The notes under the pieces are model-generated. The model ran no database searches. It was not told where the DNA came from and saw only the letters and a program-made list of their open reading frames with translations. From NCBI GenBank assembly GCA_027078475.1, contig JALWYH010000128.1, positions 1 to 34,860 on the forward strand: a DNA stretch of 34,860 nt, given 5' to 3'. Shown here in pieces: positions 27,220 to 34,860 of this stretch (position 1 is the stretch's first letter; every line of letters begins with the position of its first letter). This DNA comes from Thermoproteota archaeon. Lineage in GTDB: Archaea > Korarchaeota > Korarchaeia > Korarchaeales > Korarchaeaceae. The position numbers and the translations under genes are program-made.

Positions 27220-27237
27220 CTCAACCTCCCGTTGAGG
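27219..27237 (-). promoter_or_regulatory. Perfect 7-bp hairpin in the leader of the wHTH-lysC-asd operon
   Basis: CCTCAAC and GTTGAGG flank a 5-nt loop that reads GGGAG on the minus strand. It sits at the predicted 5' end of the transcript, directly upstream of the 17-bp repeats. Confidence 0.5.
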
Positions 27238-27251
27238 GGGGCTGGGAGCCT

Positions 27252-27267
27252 TCCTTTTAAAAAGTTA
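27252..27267 (-). promoter_or_regulatory. TATA-like promoter of the wHTH-lysC-asd operon
   Basis: The minus strand reads AACTTTTTAAAAGGAA. Transcription would begin near 27230, giving a leader of about 55 nt that holds the hairpin and the tandem repeats. It is very similar to the carAB promoter box. Confidence 0.55.
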
Positions 27268-27278
27268 ACTGGCCCTAG

Positions 27279-27302
27279 CGGTTCCGACGGGGCCGCGAAC
27301 CG
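27279..27302. repeat. 6-bp inverted repeat in the divergent promoter region
   Basis: CGGTTC and GAACCG are separated by 12 bp, between the two divergent promoters. The arm spacing fits a dimeric operator; no regulator is assigned. Confidence 0.35.
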
Positions 27303-27351
27303 TGTTAAAATAATTTCCCTTCCGGGTCGAGTCCCCGCTACCTATAGAAAC

Positions 27352-27360
27352 ATTTATATC
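27352..27360 (+). promoter_or_regulatory. TATA-like promoter of the Yip1-DUF4097-regulator operon
   Basis: ATTTATATC about 44 nt before ATG 27400. The resulting leader of about 18 nt ends in the Shine-Dalgarno-like GGTGAGAGG right before the start. Confidence 0.55.
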
Positions 27361-27399
27361 TTAACTAAAGTAAGTAAGTTTAGAAAGTTAGGTGAGAGG

Positions 27400-28062
27400 A
27401 TGAGCGAACTGGAGGATGTCTTGTACAGGTTGGGAAAGGTGTTGCTCGCTCCGAGAGAGGCGTTCGACACCCACATAGCAGAGAGGTACTCGTCGTACCT
27501 CCCGCTCGCCCTTTACGTGGGAGTGAACTTCTCCCTCTCAGCCCTGGCGGTGAAGGGGTTGCTGAGCCTCATAGGCCAGGTGCCCCTCTACAACCTCGGC
27601 TGGCTCCTCGAGCTGGTGGCCAACCTTGCTGGCGTGCTGGGAGTTGCCAGCGGCTTGGTGGACCTGCTGATGCACTCGTCCCTCATACACATAACTGCCA
27701 GGCTCATGGGATACGATGAGGGCAGATGGGACGATCTCGTGGGACTGGTGGCTTTCTCCAGTGCCCCGCTGGTCTTCCCGACGGCCCTCGCCGCGGTGGG
27801 ATACCTGGTCTCCCACGTCCTCCTGCTGGTGTCACTGGTGCTCGTGATTCCCTTCGCCCTCTGGTCCCTCTACCTCATGGTGGTGGCCACCTCGGTCAAT
27901 TACGGGATGACGACCGGCAGCGCCATCGTTGCTTCGGTGGTTGGGCCCCTCGTCGCCATGCTCGTGGCGGTCCTGCTGACCGCAAAGCTCGGTCCCGTTG
28001 GCCTGCTGATCACCATAGTGGGCATAGCCGTGGTCTATCTGGAGGGCAGGAGCAGGAGGTGA
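27400..28062 (+). CDS. Yip1-domain membrane protein
   Basis: A 220-residue protein starting at ATG 27400 behind GGTGAGAGG. The cytoplasmic N-terminus (LEDVLYRLGKVLLAPREAFD) has the PREAF-type motif seen before the first helix of Yip1-family proteins. Five or so hydrophobic helices follow: about residues 33-60, 70-95, 118-140, 143-165 and 172-215. Prokaryotic Yip1 proteins have no settled function and are often tied to membrane or envelope processes. Its stop is followed at once by the next gene's start, so the two are translated together. Confidence 0.75.
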   Translation: MSELEDVLYRLGKVLLAPREAFDTHIAERYSSYLPLALYVGVNFSLSALAVKGLLSLIGQVPLYNLGWLLELVANLAGVLGVASGLVDLLMHSSLIHITARLMGYDEGRWDDLVGLVAFSSAPLVFPTALAAVGYLVSHVLLLVSLVLVIPFALWSLYLMVVATSVNYGMTTGSAIVASVVGPLVAMLVAVLLTAKLGPVGLLITIVGIAVVYLEGRSRR

Positions 28063-28743
28063 GTGACGATGGGAAATGAGGAGAAGGTGGGCGCCCTGAT
28101 CCTAGTGCTCCTCCTCTTCTCCATGGCCGTGTCGCTGATCCCGGTCAGGCTAAAGTACAAGTACGGTGCCGGGATCGTCGAGCTCCCCCTGCCCTGGACG
28201 GCTGAGAGGAGGAGCTTCTCCGGCACCCTTCCCTACTCGTCCGTTACCCTGATGGTGGATGTTGGCCGGGTCGATGTCACGGAGGATCCCTCGGTCAGTG
28301 AACCCGCGATCCTCCTGAAGGGGGCCACACCGGCGATAGAGGACTCCGTCGGGAGGCTTGTGGCCGGCACGGCAGTGCTCAACCTTCCGAGAGGATGGAA
28401 CGGGACCCTGAGGGTGAACGTGGGGTTCGGCGGTGTGATGCTCAGGGAGGCTCACGTGAAGTCCCTTGAAATCGATGTGGGAATGGGAAGCGTGGAGGGA
28501 ACAGTCACCGTGGATGGGAAGGCTCGCATCAAGACGGACAAAGGGAACGTGAGACTCGTCATCAAGGTCCCGAAGGATGCCAGGGTTCACGTGAAGGTCA
28601 GGTCGCTGGAGGGATCGGTACACTACGACGGCCAGAGGCTGGAGGGTGGCTCCATAGAGAGGACCCTCGGACAGGGTGAGAGGGTAGTCGATGTGGAGGT
28701 GAACTCCTACAGCGTCCAGCTAGATATCACGACTCAAGGGTGA
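28063..28743 (+). CDS. Membrane-anchored DUF4097-like (beta-strand repeat) surface protein
   Basis: A 226-residue (or 224) protein with one N-terminal helix (about residues 10-27) and a long outside domain rich in alternating beta strands with small turns: VTLMVDVGRVDV, LRVNVGFGGVML, LEIDVGMGSVEGTV, ARIKTDKGNVRLVI, VHVKVRSLEGSVHY. The regular G-V/S-V pattern, about every 20 residues, resembles the DUF4097/putative adhesin beta-solenoid fold. No catalytic residues are visible. The start is GTG 28063, touching the preceding stop, or ATG 28069. It sits between a Yip1 protein and a regulator, similar to bacterial sets where DUF4097 proteins travel with a membrane protein and a PadR regulator. Confidence 0.65.
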   Translation: MTMGNEEKVGALILVLLLFSMAVSLIPVRLKYKYGAGIVELPLPWTAERRSFSGTLPYSSVTLMVDVGRVDVTEDPSVSEPAILLKGATPAIEDSVGRLVAGTAVLNLPRGWNGTLRVNVGFGGVMLREAHVKSLEIDVGMGSVEGTVTVDGKARIKTDKGNVRLVIKVPKDARVHVKVRSLEGSVHYDGQRLEGGSIERTLGQGERVVDVEVNSYSVQLDITTQG

Positions 28744-28761
28744 GTTGAGGGGGGACCTCCC

Positions 28762-29394
28762 TTGTACGTCAGATCTAGGATATACAGGGCCAAGAAGATA
28801 CTGGACGCCCTGAGCAGCGACAGCAAGCTGAGGATCCTGAGGCGGCTCCTCAGGAGCCCCGCCTCCGCCACCGACCTGGCCAACGAGTTCGGGCTCACCC
28901 TCCCGGCCATAACCTCACACCTGAAGGACCTTGAGGAGGCCGGCCTGATCAGGATAATAGAGAAGAGGAGAGGCAGGGGAAGGCCTGCCAAGCTCTACGC
29001 CCTCACCAGGAGGAGAATAAACCTTGAGATAGATCTGGAGGTGCTGCTGGAGCTCCCGGATGAGGATAGCCTGGACGAGCTGGTGAGGGAGTATATCAGG
29101 AAGAAGATGGAGGGGGGTGGGTTGAGGAAGGTGACCGTGAGGGACGTCATGGAGACCCTCGGGGTGAGCAGGGCGGTGGCCGCTGTGGTGGCGGAGAGGC
29201 TTTCAGCCGACCCTCACCCGTTGATAGAGGCGGTGGCCGACAGGATAATGGAGCACCTCAACGGGGAGAAGACGACAGTGGATCTCACAAAGGAGCTGAA
29301 TATAGACAGGTGGTGGGTCTCCAAGGCGGTGGAGCTGCTGAGCGACGAGGGACTCGTGGAGGTGAGGGCCGGGAGGGTCAGGAAGCTGGCCTGA
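28762..29394 (+). CDS. ArsR-like transcriptional regulator with up to three HTH segments
   Basis: A 210-residue protein that starts with TTG at 28762 behind GAGGGGGGA. The N-terminal winged helix (DALSSDSKLRILRRLLRSPASATDLANEFGLTLPAITSHLKDLEEAGLI, then the basic wing RRGRGRPAKLYALT) is clearly ArsR/DUF7343-like. Two further HTH-like segments follow, VRDVMETLGVSRAVAAVVAERL (about residues 125-150) and TVDLTKELNIDRWWVSKAVELLSDEGLV (about 172-200), so it may be a double or triple winged-helix protein. As last gene of a three-gene operon it probably regulates that operon. The ligand or signal is unknown. Confidence 0.8.
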   Translation: MYVRSRIYRAKKILDALSSDSKLRILRRLLRSPASATDLANEFGLTLPAITSHLKDLEEAGLIRIIEKRRGRGRPAKLYALTRRRINLEIDLEVLLELPDEDSLDELVREYIRKKMEGGGLRKVTVRDVMETLGVSRAVAAVVAERLSADPHPLIEAVADRIMEHLNGEKTTVDLTKELNIDRWWVSKAVELLSDEGLVEVRAGRVRKLA

Positions 29395-29398
29395 TCCA

Positions 29399-29445
29399 CC
29401 TACCTACCTGCCCGCCCCCTTCCTCTCCCTTTCATTTCTCCTCAA
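29399..29445 (+). terminator. Pyrimidine-rich 3' end of the Yip1-DUF4097-regulator operon
   Basis: Right after the regulator stop, a C/T-rich tract (CCTACCTACCTGCC, CCCCCTTCCTCTCCCTTTCA) runs for about 45 nt without a hairpin. Confidence 0.4.
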
Positions 29446-29492
29446 CGCAATCCCGTGCCTCCCGGTCCGCGTCGCGCGTGCTGTCACCTTCA

Positions 29493-29506
29493 AAAGCTTA
29501 AATTGA
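29493..29506 (+). promoter_or_regulatory. TATA-like promoter of the DedA gene
   Basis: AAAGCTTAAATTGA, centred about 26 nt before ATG 29527, which supports that start over an upstream in-frame ATG at 29455. Confidence 0.55.
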
Positions 29507-29526
29507 GAGCGGGGAAGGGACGGGAA

Positions 29527-30183
29527 ATGTCCCTGACCCAGGTTCTGATAGAGGCGGTGAGCTCCTGGATAAGGGAGCTGGGCTGGCTGGGGGTGTTCGG
29601 CGGTGTGATGGTGGAGACCGCCATCACGATAATACCCTCGCCTCTTGTGCCCATGGCCGCGGGCTTCTCCCTCATCCCCCCCGACTCTCCCCCGGCCGAG
29701 GTGCTCTACGTGGCTGCCGTCACCATAGGGCTGGTGGGGAGCGTGGCCGCCACCCTGGGCTCCCTCGCCCACTACGCGATCGGCTACTACGGGGGCAAGC
29801 CCCTCGTGGAGAGGCTGGGCGGGTACCTGGGCATAAGCTGGGATGAGATAGAGGCCTTCTCCAGGAGGATCAGGGGGGATAGGGAGTGGATTGGCCTCTT
29901 CCTGTCCAGGGCCCTCCCGATCATCCCCCTCTCCCCCATATCGGTGGGGGCGGGGGTGGTGAGGATGGATCCCTACCGCTTCACCGTCTTCACCCTGCTG
30001 GGTGCCTTTCCCCGCTACCTCGTCTTGGGGATAGCGGGCTACCTGGTCGGGGTGGCGTACGAGGAGCTGGTGTCCGCGCTCGATGCCGCCGAGACCGCGG
30101 TGGCCATCATAATGGTGGCCGGGGTGGCCGCCTACATCCTAGCGAGGAGGTGGACCCGTAAAGGGGATAAAGAATCGGGTTGA
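29527..30183 (+). CDS. DedA/VTT-family membrane protein
   Basis: A 218-residue protein of the DedA (SNARE-associated/VTT) family, implicated in lipid flipping and membrane potential in other organisms. The typical re-entrant loop region is present: VETAITIIPSPLVPMAAGF near residue 28 (E.....P.P), SLAHYAIGYYGGKPLVERLGGYLG near 80, and FLSRALPIIPLSPISVGAGVVRMD near 120 (the R..P..P....AG signature). ATG 29527 is chosen over 29455 because the TATA box falls 26 nt before it. The next gene begins 11 nt after the stop. Confidence 0.85.
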   Translation: MSLTQVLIEAVSSWIRELGWLGVFGGVMVETAITIIPSPLVPMAAGFSLIPPDSPPAEVLYVAAVTIGLVGSVAATLGSLAHYAIGYYGGKPLVERLGGYLGISWDEIEAFSRRIRGDREWIGLFLSRALPIIPLSPISVGAGVVRMDPYRFTVFTLLGAFPRYLVLGIAGYLVGVAYEELVSALDAAETAVAIIMVAGVAAYILARRWTRKGDKESG

Positions 30184-30193
30184 GTCTAGGGAG

Positions 30194-31096
30194 ATGACAT
30201 ACCTCGGGATCGTCGAGCTCACGGACAGGGCGGGCAGGCCCGTTAGAGTGGAGATAAGACCGGTGATGAGACCCGAGGAATTCAGGCAGCTGGTGGACGT
30301 GCAGGCGTCGGCCTGGAGGATGGGCAGGGACAGGACGGAGGCGACCCCGTCGCACGTGCTGAAGGCGGCGGCGGACAACGCCGGCGTGGTGGTGGCCGCA
30401 TTCGAGCTGGAGACCGGGAGGGCGGTCGGGTTCGCCTGGGGATTCCTGGCCAGGGATCGGCACGGCCTCTACCACTACTCCCATCAGAGCGCCGTCATCG
30501 AGGAGATGAAGTACTCGGGCCTGGGATTCAGGATAAAGCAGGCCCAGAGGGAGCTGGCCCTTCAGCAGGGACTGGACAGGGCGAAGTGGACGTTCGATCC
30601 CCTGCAGGGGCTCAACACCAGGTTCAACCTTGGCAAGCTTGGGGTCGTGAGCTGGGAGTACGTGGTGAACTACTACGGTGAGATAAACGATGAGATAAAC
30701 AGGGGTCTCAGGACCGACAGGCTCAAGGCTTGGTGGTTCCTCGACAGCGAGAGGGTCAGGAGGAAGGCCAGGGGAGAGCTGAGGTCTCCCTCCCTGGGGG
30801 AGGCGCTGGAGGCGGGAGCGGAGGAGGTGATCGAGCTCGAATCTGGGATTCCTATCGGATTCAGAAAGGTTGAGAGCGAATTAGTGCTGATAGAGGTGCC
30901 TTACAGCGTTTCCGATGCCAGGGAGAGGGGAACGGTGGGTCAGTGGAGGGAGCACACCGCTGGAGCCATGCTATACTACATGGACAGGGGATACATCGAC
31001 TTCGAGGCCGTCTACGACAGGGAAAGCAAGAGGGTATTTCATCTCCTGTGGAAGAGGCCCCTGAAGGACATACTCGGCGGAGAGGTTCCCTGGTAA
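30194..31096 (+). CDS. GNAT-superfamily acetyltransferase (COG3375-like)
   Basis: A 300-residue protein. The N-terminal half (VEIRPVMRPEEFRQLVDVQASAW, VVAAFELETGRAVGFAWGF, and YHYSHQSAVIEEMKYSGLGFRIKQAQRELALQQGLDRAKWTFDPL) follows the GNAT order of strand, helix and acetyl-CoA-binding loop; GLGFRIK replaces the usual Q/RxxGxG/A. LNTRFNLGKLGVVS resembles the 'N..FN..KLG' region of COG3375 proteins. The C-terminal 110 residues are an extra domain of unknown role. The acceptor substrate is unknown. It is probably co-transcribed with the DedA gene. Confidence 0.8.
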   Translation: MTYLGIVELTDRAGRPVRVEIRPVMRPEEFRQLVDVQASAWRMGRDRTEATPSHVLKAAADNAGVVVAAFELETGRAVGFAWGFLARDRHGLYHYSHQSAVIEEMKYSGLGFRIKQAQRELALQQGLDRAKWTFDPLQGLNTRFNLGKLGVVSWEYVVNYYGEINDEINRGLRTDRLKAWWFLDSERVRRKARGELRSPSLGEALEAGAEEVIELESGIPIGFRKVESELVLIEVPYSVSDARERGTVGQWREHTAGAMLYYMDRGYIDFEAVYDRESKRVFHLLWKRPLKDILGGEVPW

Positions 31097-31215: not shown

Positions 31216-31638
31216 CTACCTGGGCCCGGCGATATTCTTCAGGATCCTCTTCCTCCTCTCCACCGCCCTAATCTTCTCTTCCACGGTCATGGGCTCCATC
31301 CTCCTTCTAACGTCCTCCCATACCTTCCTCCACCTGTAGAAGTACTCTGAAATATCGGGCTCGCTTCCAAAGAGGACCACGTACCTGCTGATCACCGAGG
31401 CCTTGACCCTTATCGGTAGCAGCTCGAACACCCTCACATCGTATATCGGCGAGGGTACCTTCCCCCAGATATCGAGCTGGATCCTGAAGTTCCTATTCTT
31501 GTCCCTCTCCCGGGTGATAACTGACACATCTATGTCAGACCCCCTCGTGTACTCTCCCGTAACGTAGGAGCCGTATAGGACCACCTCGTACGCCGAGAGG
31601 AACTTCAGATCCCTTCTAATCCGATCCAGCGATCTCAT
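31216..31638 (-). CDS. mntA: MNT-type minimal nucleotidyltransferase (antitoxin of a HEPN/MNT pair)
   Basis: A 140-residue protein with the DNA polymerase beta-like core LYGSYVTGEYTRGSDIDVSV (about residues 22-41), containing GSxxxGxxxxxSDxD with both metal-binding Asp. In characterised HepT-MntA pairs the nucleotidyltransferase adds AMP groups to the HEPN toxin and neutralises it. An extended C-terminal half (about 60-140) has an aromatic segment, EYFYRWRKVWEDVRRRM. The ATG overlaps the end of the broken hepT frame. The gene looks intact, and both genes are AT-richer than the surroundings, suggesting acquisition. Confidence 0.82.
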   Translation of the reverse strand: MRSLDRIRRDLKFLSAYEVVLYGSYVTGEYTRGSDIDVSVITRERDKNRNFRIQLDIWGKVPSPIYDVRVFELLPIRVKASVISRYVVLFGSEPDISEYFYRWRKVWEDVRRRMEPMTVEEKIRAVERRKRILKNIAGPR

Positions 31639-32024
31639 TCAGGATCTCCTCCAGTCTCCTCAGCAGGGAGTAAAGCGTCTCTTTCACCTCCTCCACGGAC
31701 TCCATCACGAGCTCCCGATCTACCCTGATATACCTGTGAACCAACAGTTCCTCAGCCCTTTGTACTTTTTCAGACTTTCTCCCAATTCCTCACTTAAGAT
31801 ACCCAATTCCACAAGCTTGTCCACGTTTGTGTAATGTCCTCCACCCTTTCCCCTAAATCCCTTAGGAGCATCGCTATCAGGTCCATGGAAGCCTCAATAG
31901 AGGTTATGAGGTTATAGAACACACCAGACAGCTCAAGCTGGGTTCTCGGTTCCCTGATGGATTCCAGCGCGTCTATAACATATTCCATTTCCTCTCTGTA
32001 TCCAGCGAGCCTACTTTCATCCAT
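31616..32024 (-). pseudogene. hepT: HEPN-domain protein (HepT-like toxin), broken by two frameshifts
   Basis: The first frame (ATG 32024) reads MDESRLAGYREEMEYVIDAL and LSGVFYNLITSIEASMDLIAMLLRDLGERVED, a HepT start, then leaves register near 31825-31835. A second frame gives NVDKLVELGILSEELGESLKKYKGLRN. Near 31750-31760 a third takes over with LLVHRYIRVDRELVMESVEEVKETLYSLL and stops at 31616. Joined, it is a full-length HEPN protein of about 135 residues with the RNase motif R-N-L-L-V-H (Rx4H) straddling the second break. As written, no functional toxin can be made. Either the toxin has been inactivated or the sequence has two errors. It overlaps mntA in the usual toxin-antitoxin manner. Confidence 0.75.
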
Positions 32025-32125: not shown

Positions 32126-33394
32126 GTGCGAGGGTCGCCGGGTGGTACCAGGGCCAAGCTTCTCGAGTATCAGTCCAAGAGGATACTGAGAGATCATGGA
32201 ATAGTTGTGCCAGCCGGTGAGATAGCCTCTGATCCGGGAGAAGCAGAGGCGATAGCTAGAAAGCTGGGAGGCAATGTGGTAGTGAAGGCCCAGCTCCCCT
32301 TCACGGGGAGGTACGATGTGGGTGGAGTCAGGTTCGCCTCATCGCCGGAAGAGGTCCGCATGGCTGCTGAGGAGATGCTCTCCTTCTACTTCAAGGGATT
32401 CAGACCCAAGAAGGTCCTCGTGGAGAAGAAAGTGGATGTGAAGGCCGAGCTGTTCCTCAGCGTCGTGATAAACGATTCCAGGAGGTTCAGGTCTCCCATG
32501 CTGCTCGCCAGCCCCTCCGGTGGCACGGGCGTAGAGGAGAGGTCGGAGGGCGTGGTCAGGATACCCGTGGACTATCTGGACGGATTGAGGAGGGAGGTGG
32601 TAGAGGAGGAGTTCTCCCGGGTGGGAATACCCAGCGAGGCGGTAGATGTGGCGCTGAAGCTGTACGACATCTTCGTGGAATATGACGCTAGGAGTGTGGA
32701 GGTGAACCCCCTAGCCCTGACGGACGAAGGCTTGGTTGCGCTGGATGCCAGGATGGACCTCGACGATCACGCTCTCTTCAGGCATCCCGAGGTGAAGGTG
32801 GAGATCCCCAAGGACCTGAACAGGGAGCCCACCGACCTGGAGAGGAGGATGTGGTACTGGGACGACGCCGATCCGAGGGGAACGGGGTACTTCATCCAGC
32901 TGACAACTCAGGTGTCGGAGGGTTACGTGGGATTCCACGGGATAGGTGGTGGAGGTGCCATGCTGGCAGCCGATGCGCTGATAAGGAAGGGGCTCAAGCT
33001 GGCCAACTACGCTGACACGAGCGGCGATCCCCCAGCTTCGAAGGTCTACAGGGTGATCAGGACGATCCTCTCCATTCCGGGGATAGAGGGCTACGTGATG
33101 ATGGGGAGCGTGCTGGCGAGCCAGGAGCAGTGGCACCACGCCCACGCCATAGTGAAGGCGTTCAATGAGATGTTGAGGGACAGACCCGGGTTCCCGGCGG
33201 TGATCCTGCTGGCCGGTAACAAGGAGGAGGAGAGCCACGAGATAATCAGGAGAGGGGTCAAGGACCTGCCGATAAGGTTCGAGCTCTACGGCAGGGACTA
33301 CATCTACGAGACCGAGTACATCGCTGACAGGGTCCTGAAGCTTGTTGAGGAGTACAGGAGGGAGAGGGGGAGGGAGCATGAGGTTCAGAACTAG
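32126..33394 (+). CDS. SucC-like acyl-CoA synthetase, ATP-grasp (beta) subunit, divergent
   Basis: A 422-residue protein of the succinyl-CoA synthetase beta family. The ATP-grasp half is clear: LLEYQSKRILRDHGI at the start, VVKAQLPFTGRYDVGGV near 52, MLLASPSGGTGVEE near 132, and RSVEVNPLALTDEGLVALDARMDLDDHALFRHPEV near 195-230. The C-terminal CoA-ligase half (about 250-400) is divergent. The usual NG.GLAM and NIFGGI.RCD segments appear as GGGGAMLAADAL and MMGSVLASQEQWHHAHAI. The protein is longer than typical SucC (about 385-395). It probably ligates a di- or hydroxy-acid to CoA with ATP or GTP, but succinate is not assured. GTG 32126 is the only in-frame start, and the promoter is unclear (TTTAACA at 32066-32072 is a candidate). 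It starts a four-gene coupled set. Confidence 0.85.
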   Translation: MRGSPGGTRAKLLEYQSKRILRDHGIVVPAGEIASDPGEAEAIARKLGGNVVVKAQLPFTGRYDVGGVRFASSPEEVRMAAEEMLSFYFKGFRPKKVLVEKKVDVKAELFLSVVINDSRRFRSPMLLASPSGGTGVEERSEGVVRIPVDYLDGLRREVVEEEFSRVGIPSEAVDVALKLYDIFVEYDARSVEVNPLALTDEGLVALDARMDLDDHALFRHPEVKVEIPKDLNREPTDLERRMWYWDDADPRGTGYFIQLTTQVSEGYVGFHGIGGGGAMLAADALIRKGLKLANYADTSGDPPASKVYRVIRTILSIPGIEGYVMMGSVLASQEQWHHAHAIVKAFNEMLRDRPGFPAVILLAGNKEEESHEIIRRGVKDLPIRFELYGRDYIYETEYIADRVLKLVEEYRRERGREHEVQN

Positions 33395-33635
33395 GACGGC
33401 CGAAGTGGTAATAGATCTGGACGGGTGCGTGGCCCCTGACTGCGGTTTCGCGTGCGTGAAGGCCTGCAGGCTGTACGGCCGGAGCGTGCTGAAGATAGAG
33501 GACGGTAAGCCGGCGCTGGCCGTTTCCCCTCAGGAGGCCGTGAGGATAGACAACGAGTGCCTCGCCTGCGAGATCCACTGCCAGTGGTACGGGAGCGGGG
33601 TCATAGAGGTCAGGGTACCGGTGGAGGTGGTCTGA
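33378..33635 (+). CDS. Small seven-cysteine, iron-sulfur-protein-like subunit
   Basis: An 85-residue protein inserted between the two synthetase genes, overlapping both (17 nt with the first, 1 nt with the second). ATG 33378 is chosen because the sequence before it is the end of the SucC-like gene. Cysteines are at 17, 22, 26 and 30 (C-x4-C-x3-C-x3-C) and at 61, 64 and 68 (C-x2-C-x3-C), the second set in NECLACEIHCQWYG. This is ferredoxin-like in layout, but both spacings differ from C-x2-C-x2-C-x3-C and the eighth Cys is missing. It may hold one or two Fe-S clusters ([3Fe-4S] possible) or a different metal. I do not recognise a named family. Its stoichiometric position suggests a third subunit of the synthetase. 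Confidence 0.7.
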   Translation: MRFRTRTAEVVIDLDGCVAPDCGFACVKACRLYGRSVLKIEDGKPALAVSPQEAVRIDNECLACEIHCQWYGSGVIEVRVPVEVV

Positions 33636-34528
33636 TGGCCATACTCGTCGACGAGAACACACGCGTCCTTGTCCAGGGGATAACCGGGAGGACCGGCGAA
33701 TTCGCCACTAGGTACATGCTCGAGTACGGCACCAAGGTCGTGGCAGGCGTGACCCCCGGGAGAGGAGGATCGAGAGTATGGGGAGTTCCCGTCTTCGACT
33801 CGGTCGAGGAGGCGCTGGAGGAGGTGGGGCAGGTGGACGCCACCATCACCCTGGTTCCGCCAGCCCACCTGCTGGAGGCCGTGACCGAAGCCATAGAGGC
33901 TGGCATAGGATACGTGCTCATCCCGACCGAGAGGGTGCCCGTGCACGACGCCATGAGGATACTCGCCCTAGCCAAGAGGAAGGGAGTGAGGGTTCAGGGA
34001 CCGGGTTCCTTCGGGGTGATAAGTCCCGGGAAGGTGGTAATGGGATGGGTAGGGGGATCGTTGGAGCTCGCCAGGGAGGCCTTCGTCCCGGGAAGGGTTG
34101 GCGTAATATCCAGGAGCGGGGGCCAGACCACCACCACATCGTGGGCGGTGAGCAGGGCTGGTTTCGGGGTCACCACCGCGGTGCACACCGGTAGCGAACC
34201 GCTGGTGGGCCTGACAGAGTCGGAGCTGCTCGCCATGTTCGAGGACGATGAGGAGACCGAGGTCGTGGTGCTGTTCGCCGAGATCGGTGGGGTTCAGGAG
34301 GAGGAAGCCGCTGAGTTCATGGAGGAGGGCGGGTTCACCAAGCCCCTGGTGGTTTACGTGGCCGGGGGAATGCTCCCCAAGGGAATGAGATTCTCCCACG
34401 CCAGCGCCATGGTGGTCGGGGAGAGGGGATCCGCGGAGAGTAAGATAAGGTCCCTGAGGGAGGCTGGGGCGAGAGTGGCCGAATCTCCGAGGCAGATAGT
34501 TGAATTGTTGAGGGAGGTACTGGACTGA
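33635..34528 (+). CDS. SucD-like acyl-CoA synthetase, CoA-binding (alpha) subunit, divergent
   Basis: A 297-residue protein, normal SucD length. The CoA-binding Rossmann start is VLVQGITGRTGEFATRYMLEYGTKVVAGVTPGRGG, and SRSGGQTTTT and LFAEIGGVQEEEAAEF match the family. Several otherwise fixed positions differ. GPNCPG is GPGSFG, IGGDPI.G is HTGSEPLVG, and the phosphohistidine motif GHAGAI is SHASAM (His kept). A substrate other than succinate is likely. ATG 33635 overlaps the previous stop (TGATG), and its own stop overlaps the next start the same way. Confidence 0.85.
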   Translation: MAILVDENTRVLVQGITGRTGEFATRYMLEYGTKVVAGVTPGRGGSRVWGVPVFDSVEEALEEVGQVDATITLVPPAHLLEAVTEAIEAGIGYVLIPTERVPVHDAMRILALAKRKGVRVQGPGSFGVISPGKVVMGWVGGSLELAREAFVPGRVGVISRSGGQTTTTSWAVSRAGFGVTTAVHTGSEPLVGLTESELLAMFEDDEETEVVVLFAEIGGVQEEEAAEFMEEGGFTKPLVVYVAGGMLPKGMRFSHASAMVVGERGSAESKIRSLREAGARVAESPRQIVELLREVLD

Positions 34529-34860
34529 TGGTGCTGGCCAGGTCCCTGCTCTTCGTACCGGCTAACAGCTGGAGGCTCATGCTGAGCTCCCTGAGGAGTG
34601 AGGCGGATGTCGTGGTGCTGGACATGGAGGATGCGGTACCCATCGGCGAGAAGGAAACCGCGAGGTGGCTGGTCAGGGAGTTCCTCAGGGAGAGGAGGGG
34701 GGAGTTCAGGGGAAAGGTGTTCGTGAGGGTGAACTCCCTCTCCACCGGCCTGACCTCGGACGACCTCGACTTCGTGATGGGGGAGGGCCTGGATGGCGTG
34801 GTCCTGCCCAAGGCCGAGAGCGCTGATGACATACGGAAGCTGGAGGAGGAGATGAAGTCG
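34528..34860 (+). CDS. CitE-like (HpcH/HpaI family) CoA-ester lyase, N-terminal part
   Basis: The first 111 residues of a TIM-barrel lyase that runs off the right edge. RSLLFVPANSWRML is the family start; DVVVLDMEDAVP (metal-binding region), VFVRVNSL (Arg of the RxN motif) and GVVLPKAES follow in the right order. Characterised relatives cleave malyl-CoA, beta-methylmalyl-CoA, citramalyl-CoA or citryl-ACP. Being coupled to an acyl-CoA synthetase, malyl-CoA or citramalyl-CoA is the likeliest substrate here. The deciding residues may lie outside the window. Confidence 0.85.
   Translation, partial: MVLARSLLFVPANSWRLMLSSLRSEADVVVLDMEDAVPIGEKETARWLVREFLRERRGEFRGKVFVRVNSLSTGLTSDDLDFVMGEGLDGVVLPKAESADDIRKLEEEMKS

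Follow-up and report, generated by a model that had tools for sequence, protein, structure and literature searches.

The 34,860-nucleotide stretch of DNA analyzed here (the window) is contig C128 of a genome of 1.71 Mb in 136 contigs, whose host we take to be a Korarchaeum-type archaeon. The four terminal genes on this contig lie on the forward strand and overlap head to tail. The first (32126 to 33394) has a GTG start and encodes a divergent SucC-like (ATP-grasp, beta) subunit of an acid:coenzyme A (CoA) ligase of 422 amino acids (Pfam ATP-grasp_2, E value of 1.2e-40). The second, from an ATG start at 33378 to a stop that ends at 33635, encodes a small ferredoxin-like protein of 85 amino acids with seven cysteines, our proposed third subunit. 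The third (33635 to 34528) encodes a SucD-like (CoA-binding, phospho-His, alpha) subunit of 297 amino acids (Pfam CoA_binding, 2.6e-22; Ligase_CoA, 2.3e-8), and the fourth (34528 to 34860) encodes the N-terminal 111 amino acids of a CitE-like lyase (Pfam HpcH_HpaI, 5.3e-23). The lyase is truncated because the window ends with the contig; we sought its remainder elsewhere in the host genome and did not find it. An earlier reading of this DNA (the sequence-only reading) had described a seven-cysteine gene inserted between the SucC-like and SucD-like genes, overlapping both, and a lyase-like gene coupled to SucD through TGATG. The coordinates bear out this arrangement. SucC and the small gene overlap by 17 nucleotides, and the small gene and SucD, like SucD and the lyase gene at 34528, overlap by 1 nucleotide (TGATG).

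Conservation of the gene order

We scanned 84,980 species genomes with two short peptide patterns anchored on SucC and obtained 28 loci. The small gene adjoined SucC in all 28 and preceded SucD wherever the contig extended far enough. The loci came from Korarchaeum relatives, Archaeoglobi, Nitrososphaeria, Methanomassiliicoccales, Dehalococcoidia, other Chloroflexota, Deltaproteobacteria, Desulfohalobiaceae, and Syntrophomonadaceae. In summary, the triad, written here as SucC-FeS-SucD with FeS for the small gene, is spread across Archaeoglobi, Nitrososphaeria, Chloroflexota, sulfate-reducing lineages, and Bacillota. A first, narrow profile of the small protein had suggested an oddity confined to Korarchaeota, and the SucC-anchored scan ruled this out. 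We found the small gene in 11 of the 29 genomes of the host phylum. The distribution of the divergent SucC (E ≤ 1e-139) over these genomes was identical; in the remaining 18, all SucC matches were canonical-type or weaker. Genome G009, which we take to be K. cryptofilum, had neither the small gene nor the divergent SucC. The sequence-only reading had listed a small gene without a conserved position in relatives among the outcomes that would refute it, and the position is conserved in these loci and genomes. We concluded that the SucC-FeS-SucD order is not due to chance.

Searches with a profile of the small protein found its gene in 6 of 59 Archaeoglobi-class genomes, one of them presumably Archaeoglobus sulfaticallidus, and in 19 genomes of a sample of 399 from the phylum to which the Syntrophomonadaceae member belongs. 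These searches start from the small gene and are therefore silent on SucC without it. All 28 triad rows formed one group in a SucC tree against two other SucC rows (support, 100/99), these two being long branches that drew a warning from the tool. The ratio of nonsynonymous to synonymous substitution rates (dN/dS) of the small gene was 0.03 to 0.17 against five congeners, and the gene is under purifying selection. Together, the three genes form a conserved ligase module that belongs to a known superfamily, and the libraries and papers we searched gave no description of it.

At one locus (L046:10501-14635), the triad is followed immediately downstream by another pair of SucC and SucD genes, which is more distant, and by a methylmalonyl-CoA-mutase-like gene.

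The ligase subunits

SucC and SucD of the triad keep the catalytic residues of their family (ATP-grasp and phospho-His), and His255 of SucD was invariant in an alignment of 24 rows. The fold of SucC matched that of succinyl-CoA synthetase (SCS), with an E value of 1.5e-31. By its Pfam domains, His255, and fold, the pair belongs to the SCS-type, nucleoside diphosphate-forming acid:CoA ligases. The overall fold and the best full-length PDB match of SucC (SCS beta, 225.6 bits) would suit an ordinary SCS that has gained an accessory gene. We consider this extremely unlikely, given the family scores. SucC reached 189.2 bits against an NCBIfam succinate-CoA ligase cut-off of 370, SucD reached 285.5 against an alpha-subunit cut-off of 336, and a separate SucD and SucC pair on contig C94 of the host genome exceeded the cut-offs. 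In addition, the substrate-domain loop of SCS is replaced by QEQWHHAH in SucC, and the lyase gene overlaps SucD. The low scores and the canonical pair together rule out the ordinary SCS of the cell. Thus, the triad shares with SucCD the fold of both subunits and the ATP-grasp and phospho-His residues but differs from it in its scores, its loop, the small gene between the subunits, and the coupled lyase gene.

We also compared the pair with other known ligases. SucC scored 125 bits against the malate-CoA ligase beta (MtkA) equivalog, for which the cut-off is 604. MtkAB with malyl-CoA lyase follows the same logic of a ligase and a CitE-superfamily lyase, and some bacterial triads are linked to malic enzyme; the triad is set apart from MtkAB by this score and by its extra small subunit gene. 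When the C-terminal domain of SucC was compared with PDB, the large subunit of citryl-CoA synthetase (CCS) scored 66.7 bits, Chlorobium ATP-citrate lyase beta scored 44.3, and SCS scored 38. This suggests that the substrate domain may be of the CCS type and not of the succinate type. The likeness to the Hydrogenobacter CCS and citryl-CoA lyase (CCL) extends to CCL-like lyases in deep-branching triads, but the similarity to CCS is low at this score, and the lyase in the window is CitE-like.

The small ferredoxin-like protein

Pfam gave only a subthreshold match for the small protein (Fer4_2, 0.082). A confident AlphaFold2 model had a predicted local distance difference test score (pLDDT) of 89.6 and a predicted template modeling score (pTM) of 0.78, and its Foldseek matches include ferredoxin-type domains (ABCE1, RNA polymerase subunit D, dihydropyrimidine dehydrogenase, and ferredoxins). 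These ferredoxin-type matches were weak, with query TM-scores of about 0.4 to 0.6, a best E value of 0.058, and none at E ≤ 1e-3. In the standard 2[4Fe-4S] topology, cluster I is held by the first three cysteines of motif 1 and the last cysteine of motif 2, and cluster II is held by the rest. We found that the cluster I ligands are cysteines in 48 of 48 small-protein sequences. The cluster II positions (30, 58, 61, and 64 in the numbering of the window protein) varied among the same 48, with the patterns CGCC (21 sequences), CDCC (11), DCCC (6), CCCC (6), CCDC (2), and DSSW, in which the site is lost (2); the state of rows L047, L049, L060, L062, L119, and L121 was assigned by eye. The small protein in the window has Asp at one cluster II position. 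Cys and Asp are exchanged reciprocally between positions 30 and 58, as would suit two ligands of a single cluster. The small protein is thus predicted to be a divergent or degenerate two-cluster ferredoxin domain in which one cluster site is invariant and the other varies. The sequence-only reading had cast it as an iron-sulfur (Fe-S) third subunit; the conserved position agrees with this, and the ligand pattern refines it to a predicted degenerate 2[4Fe-4S] domain.

Two small subunits, at L054 (8263-8595) and L057 (1780-2103), keep cluster I and have no cluster II ligand at all. In both of these loci, QEQWYHAF replaces QEQWHHAH in SucC. Because L054 and L057 are sister rows in the SucC tree, we count the loss of cluster II and the altered loop as one event. 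That cluster II has eroded speaks against a wire for electron transfer; it points instead to a domain with a structural or sensing role.

The small protein might instead be a free ferredoxin that only happens to be encoded in the operon, serving, for example, nearby flavoprotein reductases. Its predicted fold would allow this, and SdhA/FrdA-like genes are neighbors at 10 loci. However, the gene sits between SucC and SucD and not beside a reductase gene, it is kept where no reductase gene is seen nearby (as in the Bacillota loci with malic enzyme), and its cluster II is degenerate in most members and lost in two. Moreover, we found no copy away from triads at E ≤ 1e-5 in 394 archaeal genomes; a narrower profile gave four weak matches in archaeal genomes, at E values of about 1e-4. 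We therefore regard a free ferredoxin as very unlikely.

RNA polymerase subunit D and ABCE1, both among the top fold matches, likewise carry a ferredoxin-type domain in a nonredox enzyme, although these matches are weak (E values from 0.058 upward) and the enzymes concerned are not related to the triad. We know of no Fe-S subunit of CCS. The sequence-only reading knew of no described CoA synthetase with such a subunit, and our literature search, which left most subscription journals outside, likewise found no described Fe-S subunit of SCS-type ligases.

The lyase, neighboring genes, and candidate substrates

We examined full-length CitE-like orthologues at triad loci. R68, E129, and D156 are invariant in them, and they belong to the CitE-like CoA-ester lyases. 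Their best PDB match was human CLYBL (235.8 bits), followed by malyl-CoA lyases (227 and 208 bits). The model of bacterial RipC (RipC/Ccl) matched 23 of 23 lyases, but the full-length lyase of a congener, taken as an example member, is not a RipC/Ccl equivalog because it scored 155.7 bits against a cut-off of 375. Deeper branches have a citryl-CoA-lyase-like enzyme in place of the CitE-like lyase. Of the four-gene order that the sequence-only reading described, SucC-FeS-SucD recurs, and it is not accompanied by a CitE-like lyase everywhere.

The genes around the triad differ among lineages. In Bacillota, malic enzyme follows the CitE-like lyase (four loci scanned). The triads of Archaeoglobi, Korarchaeum relatives, and Chloroflexota have as partners SdhA/FrdA-like flavoproteins, a TfrB-like protein, subunits of class I fumarase, or MmgE/PrpD. 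In most Korarchaeum relatives, MmgE/PrpD is the next gene after the lyase; in the nearest relative (L017), it is found about 2.6 kb farther downstream. Two deeper triads (L096:1533-12602 and L134:1665-13156) stand with a PrpR-like regulator, a FumA/FumB-like hydratase, a citryl-CoA-lyase-like gene, and methylaspartate ammonia-lyase, which in L096 scored 512.6 bits against a cut-off of 286. The product of methylaspartate ammonia-lyase is mesaconate, and these gene sets are possibly a citramalate branch of methylaspartate metabolism. A 473-amino-acid gene product in L096 was considered as glutamate mutase and dropped, as it matches amidohydrolase-like proteins instead. Two further triads, L095:830-8761 (aconitase-family subunits, MmgE/PrpD, PrpF, and a citryl-CoA-lyase-like gene) and L133:4738-11252 (aconitase and PrpF), possibly encode an ATP-linked (methyl)citrate-type route. 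The sequence-only reading had put forward a pathway in which a ligase and a lyase process a hydroxy-dicarboxylic acid; the malic enzyme, the fumarase-like hydratase with methylaspartate ammonia-lyase, and the aconitase with PrpF favor such a pathway and widen its candidate substrates to hydroxy-di- or tricarboxylates.

We consider it probable that the locus specifies a nucleotide-dependent 2-hydroxy-polycarboxylate:CoA ligase of three subunits, the third of them ferredoxin-like, together with a lyase that splits the CoA ester. According to this model, SucC and SucD would act through ATP-grasp phosphorylation, a phospho-His relay via His255 of SucD, and thioester formation. The ferredoxin-like protein would be an integral subunit and would most likely sit where SucC and SucD meet. 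Cluster I, which is invariant, would be structural, and the variable cluster II (in most members with three Cys and an Asp or Gly) would be a labile or redox-sensitive site and not an electron wire, because the net ligase reaction is not redox. With this subunit, SucC-SucD would convert a 2-hydroxy acid, ATP, and CoA to the CoA ester, and the lyase would then reversibly cleave the ester to acetyl-CoA and an oxo-acid. The substrate of the Korarchaeum version would most likely be citramalate (giving acetyl-CoA and pyruvate) and next malate (giving acetyl-CoA and glyoxylate). We favor citramalate in archaea because the partner is in turn MmgE/PrpD or class I fumarase, because enzymes of the latter class convert mesaconate to citramalate by hydration (PMC4682846), and because a deeper triad occurs with methylaspartate ammonia-lyase.

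Several points weigh against this model. Full-length SucC is nearest to SCS. Triad-type SucC genes without the small gene may have escaped the SucC-anchored scan, which was not exhaustive because it used two short peptide patterns. No fusion of the small protein to SucC or SucD was seen among the strong profile matches, since their open frames stay at 91 to 173 amino acids. Cluster II appears not to be needed in all members, as two are predicted to lack it. Finally, the lyase scores do not separate citramalyl-CoA from malyl-CoA specificity.

The whole CitE-linked clade, with its archaeal members, might also have malate as its substrate, so that the same three-subunit ligase would convert malyl-CoA, formed from glyoxylate and acetyl-CoA, to malate with a gain of ATP, or work in reverse. 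Malic enzyme adjoins the lyase in the four Bacillota loci scanned, and malyl-CoA lyases score almost as high as CLYBL. Syntrophobotulus glycolicus lives on glyoxylate, with a metabolism proposed to run via malyl-CoA (PMC8092247), and in the genome that we take to be its own (G914), the triad SucC is the sole SucC match, which we count in favor of the main model as well. However, we saw no malic enzyme gene near the archaeal triads, MmgE/PrpD (found beside the Korarchaeum and Archaeoglobi lyases) is a family known for nonmalate substrates, and the malate-type loci form their own subclade in the SucC tree. Malate as the substrate throughout the clade is therefore possible but, in our view, somewhat unlikely.

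We regard as unlikely an archaeal (methyl)citrate- or itaconate-type ligase, in which MmgE/PrpD would make or use a C6/C7 tricarboxylate or itaconate and the lyase would cleave its CoA ester. Among proteins of solved structure, CCS is the nearest relative of the SucC substrate domain, the MmgE/PrpD neighbors score best against IDS-epimerase and IRG1/cis-aconitate decarboxylase structures, and two deep-branching triads occur with aconitase and PrpF, all of which would fit such a ligase. Set against this, the aconitase-linked triads are the most distant branch, L095 uses a citryl-CoA-lyase-like enzyme, and no itaconyl-CoA hydratase was recognized among the neighbors examined.

The three-subunit ligase model can be extended in a bolder form that we hold to be quite unlikely. 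The site-differentiated cluster of the ferredoxin subunit (three Cys plus Asp or Gly) would help to bind or gate the 2-hydroxy acid, as does the open iron site of aconitase, or would act as a redox switch on the ligase. SucC-FeS-SucD would then be an unnamed acid:CoA ligase class widespread in anaerobes, which would also supply the ligase genes of glyoxylate fermentation via malyl-CoA.

In a genome that we take to be Desulfitobacterium dehalogenans, the small protein occupies the position between SucC and SucD. In its relative D. hafniense, SucC, a hypothetical protein, SucD, a lyase, and a decarboxylating malate dehydrogenase have consecutive accessions and were all raised during growth on pyruvate alone (PMC9888536). 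The one proteome study that we found thus calls the protein at the small-gene position hypothetical. It is probably the small protein of the triad, since the small protein fills the same position in the presumed D. dehalogenans genome.

If the three-subunit ligase model is true, a textbook two-subunit enzyme family gains a three-subunit branch with a ferredoxin-like part, in archaea and several anaerobic bacterial phyla. The triads would also offer specific candidates for the genes by which anaerobes activate malate, citramalate, and citrate-like acids, as in glyoxylate fermentation. The natural series of cluster II states (intact, Asp- or Gly-substituted, and lost) suits tests of the role of an Fe-S domain in a nonredox enzyme.

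Other genes recur near the triads. A DUF1847 protein and a protein of 280 to 310 amino acids with no Pfam or NCBIfam match are found beside archaeal triads (L044:7055-8581 and L088:3818-5267), and the latter protein also adjoins the L095 triad (L095:8789-9652). A block of small genes (helix-turn-helix, VTT-domain, DUF4097-like, and a 300-amino-acid protein) recurs near the triad in several Korarchaeum relatives (L015:13372-16983); judged by similar gene sizes, the same block lies at 27232 to 31096 in the window. Also in the window, at 31216 to 32024 on the reverse strand, a nucleotidyltransferase-like open reading frame (GSYVTGEYTRGSDIDV) adjoins a HEPN-like open reading frame that appears to be broken by a frameshift near its RN...VHRY motif, and the pair, judged by eye, resembles MNT-HEPN.

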